From an uncultured beta proteobacterium (GTDB lineage Bacteria > Pseudomonadota > Gammaproteobacteria > Burkholderiales > Burkholderiaceae_C), in contig CAIYMN010000032.1 of assembly GCA_903927295.1 (NCBI GenBank), positions 1 to 42,733 on the forward strand: 42,733 nt of DNA, read 5' to 3'. Below, piece by piece: positions 6,159 to 11,791 of the stretch. Numbering within the stretch: the first letter of the stretch is position 1; each line of letters begins with the position of its first letter. Below the pieces are notes generated by a model. That model had not been told where the DNA came from. It did not search any database and saw only the letters and a program-made list of their open reading frames with translations. A program made the position numbers and the translations under genes.

Positions 6159-7712
6159 ATGCATATTCATATTCTTGGCATTTGCGGAACCTTTATGGGC
6201 GGGCTGGCAGCGCTGGCGCGCGATACAGGCCACAAGGTGACTGGCTGTGACGTCGGCGTTTACCCGCCCATGAGCGACCAGTTGCGCGCTCTCGGCATTG
6301 AACTGATCGAAGGTTTTGCAGCCGACCAACTGGCGTTGAAACCCGATATTTTCGTCGTCGGCAACGTCGTCAGCCGGGCGCACATGGCCGATGGCAGCCC
6401 CAAGTTCGAGTTGATGGAGGCCATTCTGGACGCTGGACTGCCCTACACCAGCGGCCCGCAATGGCTGGCGGAGCACGTACTGCAAGGGCGCCATGTGATC
6501 GCCGTTGCCGGCACACATGGCAAGACCACGACCACAGCCATGATCGCCTGGATTCTCGAGTGTAGCGGTCTGCATCCTGGTTTTCTGGTTGGTGGCGTAC
6601 CGCTGAACTTCGGTGTGTCAGCCCGACTGGGTCGAAAGGGTCAGCAATTTTCCGACGGGCCGCCCCAAGCAAGTTCAGCCGCCTCGGGGCTGGAGCCTGC
6701 GGCTCCAAGCATGCTTGAGCAGGGTTGGGCAGGCGACAAAGGCGAAGCGTCTCGTGAGCCGCGGCCTGCAAGGCCGCGCGCAGTGCGCGAAGGGACCAGC
6801 GTGGGGGCTTGTTTCGTTATCGAAGCCGATGAATACGACACCGCCTTCTTCGACAAGCGCAGCAAGTTTGTGCACTACAGACCACGCACCGCAGTGCTTA
6901 ACAATCTTGAGTTTGATCACGCGGATATCTTTGACAACCTGGGGGCGATCGAGCGCCAGTTCCACCATCTGGTGCGCACAGTGCCTCGGACTGGACGCGT
7001 ACTGGTCAACGGTCTGGAAGAAAGCCTGGCGCGTGTGCTGCACCTGGGTTGCTGGAGCGAGGTCCGCAGCTTCGGCTCTGCCATCAGCGACTTCAGCGCG
7101 GAGGGTGAACCTGACGCGTTTGACGTGCTCTATCAAGGTCGAAAGGTTGCCAGTGTGAAGTGGGCACTAACTGGTGTGCACAATCAATTGAATGCGCTGG
7201 CGGCCATTGCCGCGGCTGAGCATGTTGGTGTGTCAGCGGTTGAGGCAGCCAGGGCCTTGCAGACTTTTGAAAATGTGAAGCGTCGCATGGAACTGCGCGG
7301 CACCGTGGCACGTCAGGGTGGCAGCATTGCGGTTTATGACGACTTTGCTCATCATCCAACCGCGATTCGAACCACCATCGATGGATTGCGGCGCAAAGTT
7401 GGACCGCTCGCGCGCATTCTGGCAGTGTTTGAGCCGCGTTCCAACACCATGAAACTCGGCACCATGAAAGCGCAACTCCCCTGGAGTCTTGAAGGTGCCG
7501 ATCTGGCGTTTTGCCATGGCGGTGCATTGGGCTGGGATGCGCGCGAAGCCCTGCTCGACATGGGTGCCAAAGCTCAGGTGGCCGACAGCATCGAGGCACT
7601 GGTCGGGCAAGTCATGAGGCAAGCCCGGGCCGGGGACCACATCCTGTGCATGAGCAATGGCGGCTTTGGCGACATTCACGGCAAATTGTTGACGGCACTT
7701 CAGGAAGTCTAG
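6159..7712 (+). CDS. mpl: UDP-MurNAc:L-Ala-gamma-D-Glu-meso-DAP ligase, with an inserted segment
   Basis: Mpl joins the recycled tripeptide to UDP-MurNAc, saving cell-wall material. The protein starts MHIHILGICGTFMGGLA and has the Mur-ligase ATP loop GTHGKTTT (118-125), then FVIEADEYDTAFFDKRSKF, VLNNLEFDHADIF, and YDDFAHHPTAI. At 517 residues it is about 55-60 longer than usual for the family. The excess lies at about 161-216, between SARLGR and the FVIEADEYD motif, and is Pro/Ala/Gly/Arg-rich. It is encoded by a palindrome-rich DNA element (see the repeat entry). Mpl and MurC relatives normally run almost directly between these motifs. The frame is intact. No Shine-Dalgarno is visible, and the divergent gene is only 43 bases away. 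Confidence 0.93.
   Translation: MHIHILGICGTFMGGLAALARDTGHKVTGCDVGVYPPMSDQLRALGIELIEGFAADQLALKPDIFVVGNVVSRAHMADGSPKFELMEAILDAGLPYTSGPQWLAEHVLQGRHVIAVAGTHGKTTTTAMIAWILECSGLHPGFLVGGVPLNFGVSARLGRKGQQFSDGPPQASSAASGLEPAAPSMLEQGWAGDKGEASREPRPARPRAVREGTSVGACFVIEADEYDTAFFDKRSKFVHYRPRTAVLNNLEFDHADIFDNLGAIERQFHHLVRTVPRTGRVLVNGLEESLARVLHLGCWSEVRSFGSAISDFSAEGEPDAFDVLYQGRKVASVKWALTGVHNQLNALAAIAAAEHVGVSAVEAARALQTFENVKRRMELRGTVARQGGSIAVYDDFAHHPTAIRTTIDGLRRKVGPLARILAVFEPRSNTMKLGTMKAQLPWSLEGADLAFCHGGALGWDAREALLDMGAKAQVADSIEALVGQVMRQARAGDHILCMSNGGFGDIHGKLLTALQEV
6657..6813 (+). repeat. Palindrome-rich interspersed element inserted in frame in mpl
   Basis: The segment contains three neat palindromes: TGGAGCC/GGCTCCA (6691-6707, 3-base loop), CAAGCATGCTTG (6706-6717) and CGCGGCCT/AGGCCGCG (6760-6778, 3-base loop). 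It begins with gggccgccccaagcaag and ends with agcgtgggggctt. I remember these ends from a repeat that is abundant between genes in Comamonadaceae. Here it lies inside a gene and is translated without a stop. Its borders are estimated from the extra residues in Mpl, to within about 10 bases. Confidence 0.65.
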
Positions 7713-8848
7713 CGGGCCCGACGAAGCTTGACTGCCTGCGACAAGGATTCCAGCGAGTTGCAGGAATCGTCCCAGCCCAGACAGGCATCGGTGATGCTCT
7801 TGCCGTATTCGAGCTGCGAAGAATCGTCCTTGCCGGCAACGAACTTCTGGGAGCCAGCGCGCAGGTGACTTTCGATCATTACGCCGAACACGCTCGTGGA
7901 GCCGGACGCGATTTGAGCTGCGATGTCGCGCGCAACCTCGACTTGCTTCTCGTGACGCTTGCTGCTGTTGGCGTGGCTGCAGTCGACCATCAGGGTTGCT
8001 GGCAATTTCGCAACTGACAGGTCCTTGCAGGCCGCGGCGATGCTCGCGGCGTCGTAGTTGGGTGTCTTGCCGCCGCGCAGGATGACGTGGCAATCGGGGT
8101 TGCCAGCGGTCTGCACAATCGCGACCTGTCCGTTCTTGTGGACCGACAGAAAATGGTGACCCCCGGCAGCCGCTTGAATGGCATCGGTGGCTATCTTGAT
8201 GTTGCCATCGGTGCCATTCTTGAAGCCAATCGGAGCCGACAGACCCGAGGCGAGTTCGCGATGCACCTGACTCTCGGTGGTTCGTGCACCGATGGCACCC
8301 CATGAAATCAAGTCACCCAAGTACTGCGGCGAGATCACATCGAGAAATTCGCTGCCGGCAGGCAGACCCAGACGGTTGATTTCAATCAGCAACTGGCGCG
8401 CCATGCGCAAGCCTTCGTCGATGCGGAAGGACTCATCCAGATACGGATCATTGATCAATCCTTTCCACCCCACCGTGGTGCGCGGCTTCTCAAAATACAC
8501 GCGCATCACGATCTCCAGTGTGTCCGCGTACTTTTCACGCTGCATTTTCAGCTGCTGTGCATAGTCCAGTGCCGCAGACGGGTCGTGAATGGAGCAGGGA
8601 CCAATGACGACGAGCACGCGGTCGTCATGACCCGTCATGATCTTGTGGATACGTCGGCGTGTCGCGCTGATAAGGGACTCGGCAGCGGTGCCACGAATCG
8701 GGAAGAACCGAATCAAATGCTCAGGAGGGGGTAACACGGTGATGTCCTTGATGCGTTCGTCGTCGGTCTGACCGGTGCGATCAGTGATGGGCGCATTTGC
8801 TTTGGCATACCAGGCATCGGATTGGCTTGTACTGGCTTTTGATTTCAT
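7709..8848 (-). CDS. aroG: 3-deoxy-7-phosphoheptulonate (DAHP) synthase, class I
   Basis: DAHP synthase condenses phosphoenolpyruvate and erythrose-4-phosphate, the first step toward Phe, Tyr and Trp. The 379-residue protein has the class I AroF/G/H motifs VIGPCSIHDP, FEKPRTTVGWKGLINDP, ARTTESQVHRELASGL and VDCSHANS. These include the metal-binding Cys of GPCS and the PEP-binding Lys/Arg residues. Which aromatic amino acid inhibits it cannot be read safely from sequence. It ends tail to tail with mpl, the two stop codons sharing CTAG at 7709-7712. AAGGA lies 8 bases before the ATG. Upstream are a Phe/Tyr/Trp-rich leader peptide and a terminator, so expression is probably controlled by attenuation. 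Confidence 0.96.
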   Translation of the reverse strand: MKSKASTSQSDAWYAKANAPITDRTGQTDDERIKDITVLPPPEHLIRFFPIRGTAAESLISATRRRIHKIMTGHDDRVLVVIGPCSIHDPSAALDYAQQLKMQREKYADTLEIVMRVYFEKPRTTVGWKGLINDPYLDESFRIDEGLRMARQLLIEINRLGLPAGSEFLDVISPQYLGDLISWGAIGARTTESQVHRELASGLSAPIGFKNGTDGNIKIATDAIQAAAGGHHFLSVHKNGQVAIVQTAGNPDCHVILRGGKTPNYDAASIAAACKDLSVAKLPATLMVDCSHANSSKRHEKQVEVARDIAAQIASGSTSVFGVMIESHLRAGSQKFVAGKDDSSQLEYGKSITDACLGWDDSCNSLESLSQAVKLRRAR

Positions 8849-8866
8849 CTTCTGTTTCCTTCATTG

Positions 8867-8910
8867 TTGGGGGCAGAACTGGCTCGCTTCGCGTAGCTGC
8901 GGTCTGTCCC
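8867..8910 (-). repeat. REP-like hairpin repeat, copy 1 (aroG leader)
   Basis: This 44-base imperfect palindrome has ends GGGGCAG and CTGTCCC and a central GCTTCGCG-type turn. It matches 36 of 44 positions of a second copy at 10585-10628. It lies between the attenuator terminator and the aroG start, 18 bases upstream of the ATG, so it would be part of the read-through mRNA. Confidence 0.75.
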
Positions 8911-8928
8911 ACGAGGTTTCACGTGGAC

Positions 8929-8959
8929 AAAAAAAACCGCCGGGGCTGCCGGCGGTTTT
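8929..8959 (-). terminator. Attenuator terminator in the aroG leader
   Basis: Read on the minus strand, AAAACCGCCGG (8959-8949) pairs perfectly with CCGGCGGTTTT (8943-8933) around a 5-base loop, and the T run continues to 8929 (eight T in total). This is a strong intrinsic terminator placed 80 bases before the aroG start and 31 bases after the leader-peptide stop. Its 5' arm ACCGCCGGCAG (8956-8946) can alternatively pair with CTGTGGCGGT (9012-9003) at the end of the leader-peptide frame, which would act as an antiterminator. Confidence 0.9.
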
Positions 8960-8990
8960 GGGAAGATCAGGACGTTTTTTTCAGGTACGT

Positions 8991-9059
8991 TCAGAACTCT
9001 CTACCGCCACAGGCGCCTGAGAACCAAAAATAGCTAAAGTAAAAACTGGCCGACTTCAT
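8991..9059 (-). CDS. aroG leader peptide (Phe/Tyr/Trp-rich attenuation peptide)
   Basis: This 22-codon frame begins ATG at 9059 and stops with TGA at 8991-8993. The peptide starts MKSASFYFSYFWF: residues 6-13 are Phe-Tyr-Phe-Ser-Tyr-Phe-Trp-Phe, and the last residue is also Phe. Such a cluster of codons for the pathway's end products, just before a terminator and the first aromatic-pathway gene, is the classical design of ribosome-mediated attenuation known from trp, phe and his operons. A ribosome waiting at these codons would free CTGTGGCGGT to pair with the terminator's 5' arm. All three aromatic amino acids are represented, suggesting shared sensing. No good Shine-Dalgarno is visible, the one weak point. 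It lies 37 bases after the tldD stop. Confidence 0.85.
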   Translation of the reverse strand: MKSASFYFSYFWFSGACGGREF

Positions 9060-9096
9060 GACATCGAATGTATCACAACCGTTGACGACAAGTGGC

Positions 9097-10569
9097 TCAC
9101 GCGGTCCCGCCGACGGTCAGGCCGTCGATGCGCAGCGTCGGTTGGCCGACGCCGACGGGGACGCTTTGTCCCTCCTTGCCGCAGGTGCCGACGCCGCTGT
9201 CGAGCTTCATGTCATTGCCGATCATGCTGACGCGCTTGAGGCATTCGGGGCCGCTACCAACCAGAGTCGCACCCTTGACCGGGTACAGAATCTTGCCTTT
9301 CTCGACCCAGTAAGCTTCACTCGCCGAAAAGACAAATTTGCCGGAAGTGATGTCAACTTGTCCACCACCAAAGTTGCTCGCATAAAGACCCTTCTGGATG
9401 CTCGCAATGATTTCATTGGGGTCTTTGTCTCCACCGAGCATATAGGTATTTGTCATGCGCGGCATCGGTACCGATGCGTAGCTCTCGCGTCTGGCGTTGC
9501 CGGTCACTGCTACACCCATCAGCCGTGCATTCATGGTGTCCTGCATATAGGCTTTGAGAATGCCATCTTCGATCAGCACATTGCGCTGGCTGATGTTGCC
9601 CTCGTCATCGACATTAAGCGAGCCACGGCGCTCAGCCAGCGTACCATCGTCCAGCACGGTCACACCCTTGGCTGCGACACGTTGGCCAATGCGACCACTG
9701 AAGGCGCTTGAACCCTTTCGGTTGAAGTCGCCCTCCAGACCGTGCCCGATCGCTTCGTGCAGCAAAATGCCAGGCCAACCGGCGCCCAGAACCACCGTCA
9801 TTTCTCCCGCCGGAGCGGCGCGCGCCTCCAGATTGGTCAGCGCGGCATGGACCGCTTCATCGACATACTGACTGATGCGCGTAGCGTCGAAGTAGGCCAG
9901 ACCAAAACGGCCACCGCCGCCCGCCGTGCCGACTTCACGCCGGCTCTTGCCACCGATTACCTGCTCCGCTATGACCGTGACGGACAGGCGCACCAGCGGG
10001 CGCACATCGGCCGCCAGCGTTCCGTCAGCGCGCGCGATCAGCACCACGTCGTATTCGCTGGCCAGACCCGCCATCACCTGCGCGACACGAGGGTCCTTGG
10101 TACGCGCCAGACGTTCGACGGTTCCAAGCAAGGCTACCTTGCTGGCGCTGTCCATCGTGGCAATTGGATCCAGACCTGGATAGAGTGAGCGCGCGGTTGC
10201 CAACTTCTTCGCACTCGTTCGCACGCGCGCAGTTTGCGCGGCGCTTGAAATGGTTCGCACGGTGCGGGCAGCGTCCAGTAGCGACGCTGCGGAAATATCA
10301 TCCGAGTAGGCGAAAGCAGTCTTTTCTCCGCTGACAGCGCGCACGCCGACACCCTGATCAATGCTGAAGGAGCCGGTCTTGACGATGCCTTCTTCCAGAC
10401 TCCAACCCTCCGATCGCGTGTACTCGAAATACAGGTCAGCCTCGTCAACTTGATGTGACTTGATTTCGTTCAGAGCGCGGGTCAGGTCGGATTCGTCCAG
10501 ACCAAAGGGGTCGAGCAGCAGGGCCTTGGCAGTTGCCAGGCGTTCAAGAGTCGGTTCGCGAGAGATCAT
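9097..10569 (-). CDS. tldD: TldD metalloprotease subunit
   Basis: TldD pairs with TldE/PmbA to form a zinc protease that trims peptides such as microcin B17 precursors and degrades unfolded peptides. The 490-residue protein has the HExxxH metal motif HEAIGHGLEGD (271-276) and SGRIGQRVAAKGVTVLDDG. It also has the C-terminal region CGKEGQSVPVGVGQPTLRIDGLTVGG typical of TldD. The frame is open 33 codons upstream, but that stretch is a translated hairpin repeat, so ATG 10567-10569 (MISREP) is chosen. No pmbA gene is in the window. It lies between rodA and the aroG leader on the same strand. Confidence 0.95.
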   Translation of the reverse strand: MISREPTLERLATAKALLLDPFGLDESDLTRALNEIKSHQVDEADLYFEYTRSEGWSLEEGIVKTGSFSIDQGVGVRAVSGEKTAFAYSDDISAASLLDAARTVRTISSAAQTARVRTSAKKLATARSLYPGLDPIATMDSASKVALLGTVERLARTKDPRVAQVMAGLASEYDVVLIARADGTLAADVRPLVRLSVTVIAEQVIGGKSRREVGTAGGGGRFGLAYFDATRISQYVDEAVHAALTNLEARAAPAGEMTVVLGAGWPGILLHEAIGHGLEGDFNRKGSSAFSGRIGQRVAAKGVTVLDDGTLAERRGSLNVDDEGNISQRNVLIEDGILKAYMQDTMNARLMGVAVTGNARRESYASVPMPRMTNTYMLGGDKDPNEIIASIQKGLYASNFGGGQVDITSGKFVFSASEAYWVEKGKILYPVKGATLVGSGPECLKRVSMIGNDMKLDSGVGTCGKEGQSVPVGVGQPTLRIDGLTVGGTA

Positions 10570-10584
10570 GGCTGATGGTATCAG

Positions 10585-10628
10585 TTGAGGACAGTACTGG
10601 TGCGCTTCGCGCAACTGCGGTCTGTCCG
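10585..10628 (-). repeat. REP-like hairpin repeat, copy 2 (rodA-tldD gap)
   Basis: A 44-base palindromic unit lies in the 67-base gap between rodA and tldD. Its outer arms GGACAG (10589-10594) and CTGTCC (10622-10627) are perfect. An inner stem TGCGC/GCGCA closes on a 3-base loop. It aligns without gaps to copy 1 at 8867-8910 (36 of 44 identical). Both copies sit just upstream of a minus-strand gene in the same orientation. Confidence 0.75.
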
Positions 10629-10636
10629 GCAAGGCA

Positions 10637-11791
10637 TCAGGATTGCACCAGCCGCTTGGACTTGGCAATAGACATCAATATGCCGAGCCCCATGCCCAAG
10701 GTGACCATGGCGGTGCCGCCGTAGCTGACAAAAGGCAGTGGCACACCGACCACCGGCAAAATGCCGCTGACCATACCCATGTTGACGAAGGCATAGGTGA
10801 AGAAGATCAACGTGATGCTGCCAGCCAGCAGTCTTGAGAACACGGTTGGGGCTTCCAGCGCAATGTTCAGGCCGCGCAGGATAAGGAAGCCAAAACCGGC
10901 AATCAGCAGCAAGTTGCCAAAGAGGCCGAACTCTTCAGAAAACGCAGCAAAGATGAAGTCGGTGGTGCGCTCCGGGATGAATTCCAGATGGGTTTGAGTG
11001 CCCTGCATGAAGCCCTTGCCCCAAAAGCCACCCGAGCCAATCGCGATCATGCCCTGAATGATGTGGAAGCCCTTGCCCAGTGGGTCACGTGTCGGATCCA
11101 GCAAGGTGCAAATACGCTGCTGCTGGTAATCGTGCAATACCGGCCAGCGCATGCCGTCAGCACAGAGTTGAGGTTCAAAACCGACCACCAAAGCCACGCC
11201 TGCCACCCCCAGTAGCAAAGGCGGCAGGATCAGCTTCCAGGACAATCCAGCGAAGAAAATGATTGACAGGCCGGCTGACAGCACCAAAATGGCGGTGCCC
11301 AGGTCGGGCTGGCGCACGATCAGCGCAATCGGCACGACCAGCAACAAAGCGGCCACAGCAAAGTCCAGCGGTCGCAATTGCCCCTCACGCTTCTGGAACC
11401 ACCAGGCCAGCGTCAGCGGTACCGCGATCTTGAGTATTTCGCTGGGCTGGATCGTGACGCCGACATTGAGCCAGCGCCGTGCACCCTTCTTGGTAACGCC
11501 GAAAACTGCGACGGCGATCAGTAGCGTGACGCCAACCAGGTACAACGGTACGGCCAGTGACATCAAGCGCTGCGGTGGAATCTGTGCAACAACAAACAGG
11601 ATGAAGCCGGCCAGCAGCATGTTGCGTCCATGGTCCTCAAAGCGCGTACCCTGATCAAAGCCGGATGAATACATGGTCAGCAGACCCGCGCAAGCGAGCA
11701 GGAAGACGGCAAACGCCAATGGCCCGTCAAACCCGCGAAACCAGGGCGCCATGCGCTGCCACACCGAAAGATTCTTGAAAACCACTGCCAT
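10637..11791 (-). CDS. rodA: Rod-shape peptidoglycan polymerase RodA
   Basis: This SEDS-family glycosyltransferase polymerises lipid II for cell elongation in partnership with PBP2. The 384-residue protein has about ten hydrophobic membrane segments. It has the SEDS motifs KKGARRWLNVGVTIQPSEILKI, in two halves, and RQPDLGTAILVL. Further motifs are GSGGFWGKGFMQGTQTHLEFIPERTTDFIFA, again over adjacent segments, and LPFVSYGGTAM near the end. These and the gene's length favour RodA over FtsW. The mreBCD and mrdA genes are not in view. It is divergent from the esterase gene, with 40 bases between starts. Confidence 0.93.
   Translation of the reverse strand: MAVVFKNLSVWQRMAPWFRGFDGPLAFAVFLLACAGLLTMYSSGFDQGTRFEDHGRNMLLAGFILFVVAQIPPQRLMSLAVPLYLVGVTLLIAVAVFGVTKKGARRWLNVGVTIQPSEILKIAVPLTLAWWFQKREGQLRPLDFAVAALLLVVPIALIVRQPDLGTAILVLSAGLSIIFFAGLSWKLILPPLLLGVAGVALVVGFEPQLCADGMRWPVLHDYQQQRICTLLDPTRDPLGKGFHIIQGMIAIGSGGFWGKGFMQGTQTHLEFIPERTTDFIFAAFSEEFGLFGNLLLIAGFGFLILRGLNIALEAPTVFSRLLAGSITLIFFTYAFVNMGMVSGILPVVGVPLPFVSYGGTAMVTLGMGLGILMSIAKSKRLVQS

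Follow-up and report, generated by a model that had tools for sequence, protein, structure and literature searches.

Upstream of a gene for DAHP synthase, an uncultured beta proteobacterium (assembly GCA_903927295.1, contig CAIYMN010000032.1) carries a very short frame crowded with aromatic codons, followed by a hairpin with a T tract. The locus raises the question whether this arrangement is a transcription attenuator through which a shortage of aromatic amino acids would raise expression of aroG, or a chance frame beside the terminator of the preceding gene. Ribosome-mediated attenuation controls trp, phe and his operons in proteobacteria, and the DAHP synthase genes of E. coli are under TyrR or TrpR control. 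Our analysis of the 42,733 nt stretch containing the locus (hereafter the window) and of genomes from the same family, order and class points to a ribosome-mediated transcription attenuator of aroG of the trp/phe type, a reading to which we assign a probability of roughly 0.93 and which rests on comparative sequence analysis and folding. The features concerned are listed in the table.

Table. Features of the predicted aroG attenuator and its neighbours, in order of transcription (positions are those of the window)
Feature	Position	Strand	Details	Basis
tldD (metalloprotease), upstream neighbour	9097..10668	-	start codon provisional	NF008006, 652.9 bits vs cut-off 513
Putative extended -10 promoter element	9067..9077	-	TGTGATACATT, 7 nt 5' of leader start codon	pattern in relatives
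Leader peptide ORF	8991..9059	-	MKSASFYFSYFWFSGACGGREF, ATG start, 22 codons	ORF scan, relatives
Control codons	9021..9044	-	Phe6 Tyr7 Phe8 (Ser9) Tyr10 Phe11 Trp12 Phe13	tallies in 110 leaders, folding switch point
Predicted protector hairpin 1:2	8997..9023	-	TTCTC 9023-9019/GAGAG 9001-8997 and CGCC 9015-9012/GGCG 9008-9005	RNAfold, alignment
Segment 2, predicted antiterminator 5' strand	9003..9012	-	CTGTGGCGGT, core GGCGGT 9008-9003	duplex calculation, covariation
Predicted intrinsic terminator	8929..8959	-	11-bp hairpin 8959-8933, then the rest of the T tract to 8929	folding, alignment
Segment 3, shared by antiterminator (3' strand) and terminator (5' arm)	8946..8956	-	ACCGCCGGCAG	duplex calculation, covariation
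aroG	7709..8848	-	class I DAHP synthase, first enzyme of the shikimate pathway	Pfam/NCBIfam profile matches

The gene 3' of the terminator is a DAHP synthase gene, as had been predicted. Its product matched PF00793 (E 1.2e-94) and, with 526.9 bits against a cut-off of 173.2, the NCBIfam model TIGR00034 (aroFGH); against the AroG-specific model NF006723 it scored 542 bits, below the cut-off of 568. A 517-residue plus-strand ORF, which we take to resemble a murein peptide ligase, is convergent with the minus-strand aroG and overlaps it by 4 nt at 7709-7712. The same genome encodes a second DAHP synthase (L002, G000:C287:9999-10988) that is 57% identical to the window AroG; no aromatic leader was present in the 600 nt before this match, whose alignment begins at residue 33 of the query. 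The covariance model described below gave a single match in the window's assembly at E <= 0.001, located at aroG. A possible second copy in the assembly (E 0.76) was rejected as the same terminator read on the reverse strand, and a plasmid-borne copy was rejected as well, blastn of 8848-9100 against plasmids giving no match. A protein search of plasmids with the aroG product returned 87 records, some of them from Burkholderiales.

The leader was confirmed as an ATG frame of 22 codons, unlisted among the ORFs, and its residues 6-13 read F Y F S Y F W F, that is, seven aromatic residues in eight. Stretches of eight residues with at least six aromatics occurred three times in the six frames of the window, overlapping one another and all belonging to this leader, compared with a mean of 0.1 in 40 first-order Markov randomisations of the window, none of which gave a stretch with seven or more. 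Searches of the peptide against Pfam and NCBIfam were without match. If functional, the aroG leader would be a clear example of how easily a short leader frame is overlooked.

The original prediction had been made to stand or fall with conservation of the aromatic codon run and of both stems, and all of these proved to be conserved in relatives. A protein search found aroG in 390 of 399 genomes of the family (no match in nine). We read 110 upstream regions from the best-scoring places of this search, 80 of them chosen to spread over genera, and every one contained an aromatic leader. Phe and Tyr codons were present in all 110 leaders and a Trp codon in 100, with means of 4.5 Phe, 1.8 Tyr and 0.9 Trp codons per leader. 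At the position three codons 5' of the final control codon, 107 of the 110 encode Tyr, by TAC in 82 and by TAT in 25, and this synonymous variation at a conserved residue is conservation of a coding type. Trp stands directly 5' of the last control codon in 100 leaders; the Phe between the conserved Tyr and the last control codon was set by our anchoring pattern and is excluded as evidence. The downstream half of the leader behaves differently. There, GGCGGT, A or T, and GAGAG follow one another as nearly the same DNA. Most species translate it as GGRE, but seven of the 110 (L015, L016, L021, L024, L032, L044, L066) have it in a different frame, which gives AVES or AVER. Since the same letters are retained in a different reading frame, this half appears to be kept as RNA and not as peptide. 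As a side observation, Phe codons in the leaders (L001, L003-L111) are TTT in 310 of 499 cases, compared with TTC in 182 of 257 in aroG stretches of 30 loci, and TTT also serves for the Phe two codons ahead of the run's end in 104 of 110 leaders; the preference for TTT may slow decoding or keep the RNA unpaired.

Both strands proposed for the switch are present: CTGTGGCGGT spans 9012-9003 and ACCGCCGGCAG spans 8956-8946. Two details of the original prediction need correction. The terminator stem is a perfect 11 bp with a loop of 5, as described, but the eight T do not all trail it: four form the 3' side of the stem in A-U pairs and four follow. Likewise, pairing between the leader segment and the terminator 5' arm holds as a 6-bp core, GGCGGT/ACCGCC, but in the duplex calculation its extension runs not through CTGT but through GGCGCC (9017-9012), which pairs with GGC and GCC farther along the terminator 5' side. 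Because GGCGGT (9008-9003) copies the terminator 3' arm, two alternative partners are available to ACCGCC (8956-8951) in the terminator 5' arm.

Compensatory base changes, which the original prediction suggested looking for in both stems, were found in relatives in alignments of 67 of the 110 family sequences (A1) and of 33 diverse sequences from many families (A3), and in a tally of 146 sequences. The automated terminator search picked the wrong hairpin in some loci (e.g. L023, L031, L058, L070), and the alignment was used instead; L044, whose terminator departs from the search pattern, was omitted from the pair alignments. Within the family the antiterminator (2:3) core is nearly invariant. 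Its only pair varying on both sides, 81-145, shows GC in 62 of the 67 sequences and AU in the other five, which belong to one group, so that the change may be a single event. At positions 85-141, 50 of the 67 sequences have no pair. For the protector hairpin and the terminator together (1:2 and 3:4), the covariation in this set, 0.062, was above shuffles and barely above the alignment slid by -1 (0.058, with equally many two-sided changes). In the 33 diverse sequences both helices show variation while pairing is retained. Antiterminator pair 61-131 is UA in 15, CG in eight, AU in two, UG in two and unpaired in six, and 85.2% of antiterminator cells are paired; terminator pair 131-147 is AU in 18, GC in 12, UA in two and unpaired in one, with 97.3% of terminator cells paired. 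Covariation was 0.144 for 2:3 (shuffled 0.082, sd 0.014; slid <=0.043) and 0.213 for 3:4 (shuffled 0.096, sd 0.012; slid <=0.078), and in both cases none of 500 shuffles was as high. These shuffles keep kinship, so that the counts here and in the three-way tally below are not independent events, and the numbers of changed pairs and pair types were not clearly above shuffles in either the 67- or the 33-sequence set. The three-way tally was taken at the position next to the core, comparing leader copy, terminator 5' arm and 3' arm. Among 146 distinct sequences it gave C-G-C in 86, T-A-T in 19 and A-T-A in two, one or both pairs being broken or wobble in the other 39; the changed forms were seen in Burkholderia, Massilia, Xanthomonas and others. 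Judged by these pairings, a mutually exclusive antiterminator that shares the terminator 5' arm is present.

The analysis also points to a hairpin that was not part of the original prediction, a putative protector beginning at the last Phe codon, which would hide segment 2 when the aromatic codons carry no ribosome. Its outer stem is paired in 94.3% of cells in the 67 family sequences, and for each of two pairs there is one sequence with a two-sided change. The inner stem CGCC/GGCG becomes CGTC/GACG in L097, L099, L100, L111 and L088, where segment 2 carries GACG, and GTCC/GGAC in another clade; its register differs between clades, with mismatches in some. By RNAfold the 46-nt piece of the window is no more stable than shuffles (z -0.28), and 107 cut-outs, several of them clipped and with three loci left out, had a mean z of -1.2, with 75 below -1. 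In these calculations the protector hairpin is weak and its energy modest.

Folding with a masked ribosome was calculated in detail for eight loci, and the switch point for 108 of the 110 relatives. In the window the predicted probability of 2:3 was 0.91-0.99 with the A site anywhere from residue 4 to F13, 0.32 at S14 and 0 beyond. It was 0.37 with no ribosome at all (0.00-0.80 in the seven other loci), where suppression is expected. In two of the eight loci a stall at the last Phe codon was non-permissive (L020, L049), in L049 also a stall at the last Tyr codon. The last permissive codon and the last aromatic codon were at most one codon apart in 102 of 108 relatives with the footprint first assumed, and in 93 to 103 over four footprints. 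Segment 2 and the footprint determine this switch point, and it is there that the aromatic run ends. Depending on the footprint, a ribosome at the stop codon leaves segment 2 free in 28 to 51 of 108 loci, so that in these cases termination would have to depend on the protector hairpin once the ribosome is released.

A promoter element, too, was not part of the original prediction. The pattern TGnTAnnnT lies 6-9 nt 5' of the chosen leader ATG in 106 of the 110 family relatives; three of the remaining four have it 12-14 nt upstream, an earlier in-frame ATG lying between it and the chosen one, and one has no TG. A pattern search for a Shine-Dalgarno-like motif 5' of the leader ATG was negative in all 110. 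With an extended -10 element 7 nt upstream of its ATG and no Shine-Dalgarno motif, the leader is probably leaderless, its transcript being predicted to start at or next to the AUG. In other families an extended -10 at 5-9 nt upstream was present in 13 of the 44 loci listed; its position is shared by some of these families and by Xanthomonas, and not by Burkholderia or Oxalobacteraceae relatives.

We infer transcription start, leader translation, stalling, termination and the amino acids that matter as follows. Transcription would start at about 9060 from the extended -10 promoter. The transcript would thus have the leader AUG at its 5' end or immediately beside it, and translation of the leader peptide would begin with no Shine-Dalgarno sequence. 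When charged Phe and Tyr tRNAs, and here also Trp tRNA, are available, the ribosome would pass the aromatic codons and either cover segment 2 or free it into the protector hairpin. With segment 2 unavailable, segments 3 and 4 would form the terminator and aroG would be off. When a charged aromatic tRNA is short, the ribosome would stall within F6-F13, GGCGGT of segment 2 would pair with ACCGCC of segment 3, the terminator would be blocked and RNA polymerase would continue into aroG.

Covariance searches indicate how widespread the element is. Model R1, built on 67 of the 110 family sequences, matched 376 of 399 family genomes (no match in 23), including 338 of 349 of good quality, and 137 of 141 genera. 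In the order it matched 98 of 399 genomes, 86 of them in 13 other families; given training on a single family and strict filters, the 301 order genomes with no match are not proof of absence. Both R1 and a second model, R2, are biased to their training families, and their counts outside these are lower bounds. The order search yielded 29 loci besides the window's own (L114-L142), all with aroG downstream (tblastn), and an aromatic leader was recognised in 28 by script and in L129 on reading. Among 80 named DAHP synthase loci the strict motif occurred in 59, and a looser rule (five aromatics in nine residues) gave a frame in 63, a few of them doubtful. Genera with the element, according to record titles and including some metagenome-assembled genomes, include Polaromonas, Ramlibacter, Variovorax, Acidovorax, Hydrogenophaga, Comamonas, Rubrivivax, Burkholderia, Caballeronia, Paraburkholderia, Massilia, Janthinobacterium, Rugamonas, Xanthomonas, Stenotrophomonas and Dyella. 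The 21 named loci in which the strict motif was not found include three of Polynucleobacter, the Cupriavidus pampae copy and the chromosome 2 copy of C. necator, and loci of Thauera, Azoarcus, Rhodocyclus, Chitinimonas (two), Undibacterium, Colwellia and Enterovibrio. The Polynucleobacter and the two Cupriavidus copies (L166-L168, L170, L171) are without the element despite 74-75% identity to the query, to which their DAHP synthases are closer than the element-bearing Burkholderia copies are.

At the level of the class, R2 matched 35 of 369 genomes. Many of the matches outside the order cover the terminator half only and look like chance. Seven R2 loci were opened: those in G949, G1057, G797 and G1058, all outside the order, are full-length, with an aromatic leader and, downstream, an aroG 60-64% identical, three of the four having leaders that resemble those of Xanthomonas, and L230 and L240 were without aromatic leader or DAHP synthase. 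The seventh is L233 (1470-1660; G966, from a family outside the order), where an aromatic frame, ACFFYFSFFSPALGG, precedes a DAHP synthase 35% identical to the window AroG, with an apparent alternative stem of its own and a poor T tract; this frame is perhaps an independent attenuator.

Several other readings of the locus have to be weighed. The hairpin might be the terminator of tldD only, with the aroG promoter 3' of it and the aromatic frame arising by chance. tldD is indeed codirectional with aroG, its end at 9097 lies 137 nt upstream of the hairpin, a terminator by itself would be ordinary, and read-through out of tldD would likewise reach the terminator of the aroG leader. However, the model that matches 376 of the 399 family genomes spans leader, antiterminator copy and terminator together, the strands co-vary, and a scan of 8840-9200 on either strand recognised no sigma-70-type promoter pattern, an extended -10 with no recognised -35 lying outside that scan. 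On the model matches and the covariation of both helices we rejected a chance ORF beside a tldD terminator, and consider this reading practically negligible. Arrest of the ribosome by the nascent peptide, in place of slow decoding, would fit the strong conservation of a YFWFS core within the family. Against it, the C-terminal half of the peptide shifts frame while the RNA sequence is retained, and across families the aromatic run is kept with its order changed (KFYFYFFWHL, SFYFWYYGF, FFTGYFYF), which suits codon identity and not a fixed peptide; an arrest peptide therefore seems very improbable. The terminated leader RNA or its peptide might in addition act in trans, like rnTrpL/peTrpL of Sinorhizobium meliloti. 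A strong terminator at its end and a predicted start at the AUG, as for rnTrpL in the accessible text of PMC7298713, would agree with such a role, but the ends of the peptide vary freely among relatives and we regard it as unlikely.

What the attenuator would sense is a more even contest. The original prediction held that shortage of any of the three aromatic amino acids would raise aroG expression. Folding permits antitermination for a stall at any aromatic codon of the window, but the Trp codon is missing in ten of the 110 leaders. Phe, perhaps with Tyr, could be the only working signal and the Trp codon incidental, Phe and Tyr codons never being missing; in C. glutamicum, aroR responds to Phe limitation and not to Tyr availability, as far as the accessible text of PMC11802643 goes. 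On the other side, in 100 of the 110 leaders Trp immediately precedes the final control codon, inside the stall-permissive stretch. We hold the reading with Phe, and perhaps Tyr, as the working signal to be possible but less likely than not. The best explanation appears to be an attenuator that senses Phe and Tyr and usually also Trp, with Phe dominating, and a pooled response to all three aromatic amino acids is likely. For the broader proposal, that entry into the shikimate pathway is gated by a single old attenuator, often leaderless, which reads the charging of Phe-, Tyr- and Trp-tRNA together and is shared by the window's family, many other families of the order and xanthomonads, we would give even odds. 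If the switch works as read, the first committed aromatic step in a very large bacterial group, with the switch in 376 of 399 sampled genomes of one family and in members of many others, would be under one small RNA switch. A pooled attenuator at a single gene would represent a branched-pathway logic differing from that of the separately controlled E. coli DAHP synthases; it might offer a direct and cheap test of how the signals of three end products of a branched pathway are combined at a single gene, and a natural sensor of aromatic starvation.

The pheA (pheL) and trp (trpL) attenuators of gammaproteobacteria consist of control codons and of protector, antiterminator and terminator hairpins that share strands. 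The window leader has likewise control codons and predicted strand-sharing hairpins; unlike pheL and trpL, it would govern the common first step, carries codons for all three end products and has no Rfam family match. A known Rfam RNA was rejected, since in 7500-10700 of the window at E <= 5 only NsiR1, SpR10_sRNA and sroD were reported, all far below their gathering scores, the weak NsiR1 and sroD matches (Rfam 15) overlying the terminator region; in 12 relatives Rfam 15 gave no match to the leader up to E 0.1. With regard to protein regulators, TrpR (PF01371) had no match in the window's assembly (86.8% complete), the E. coli control being matched, and a regulon survey (PMC5343134) reconstructs, in its accessible part, the regulon of TrpR for eight gammaproteobacterial lineages and that of TyrR for six.

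The principle of attenuating a DAHP synthase gene is already known. According to the accessible parts of PMC11802643 and PMC4046766, C. glutamicum aroR-aroF (Neshat et al. 2014) has a Phe-Tyr-Phe leader before the DAHP synthase gene, and ribosome stalling at the leader codons under Phe limitation raises transcription; Tyr availability is, in the accessible text of PMC11802643, without effect despite the Tyr codon. The window element resembles this system in having an aromatic-codon leader peptide before a DAHP synthase gene and would work alike, but it belongs to another phylum and has a longer run, usually with a Trp codon; the likeness is one of mode of action. In Shewanella, Table 3 of PMC2659441, as accessible, labels a predicted 5' element of aroF as 'Attenuator sensing tyr-tRNA'. 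This is likewise RNA control before a DAHP synthase gene, but the element is Tyr-specific by its label and thereby set apart, by description, from that of the window. The leader RNA of S. meliloti trpL starts at the AUG (accessible text of PMC7298713), as is predicted for the window leader; it precedes trpE(G) in a different bacterial class, and a role in trans has been reported. No description of the element in betaproteobacteria or xanthomonads was found in open-access literature, and prior description elsewhere is possible. The accessible texts of PMC11802643, PMC4046766, PMC2659441, PMC2965389, PMC7298713, PMC1262725 and PMC5343134 contain none, and the main text of Naville and Gautheret 2010 (PMC2965389), as accessible, is without aroG, 'aromatic' or 'deoxy'. 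With precedents in C. glutamicum and Shewanella, no Rfam match and no such report, the aroG leader is best compared with these systems as a known mechanism that appears to be unusually widespread and to have, probably, a leaderless start.
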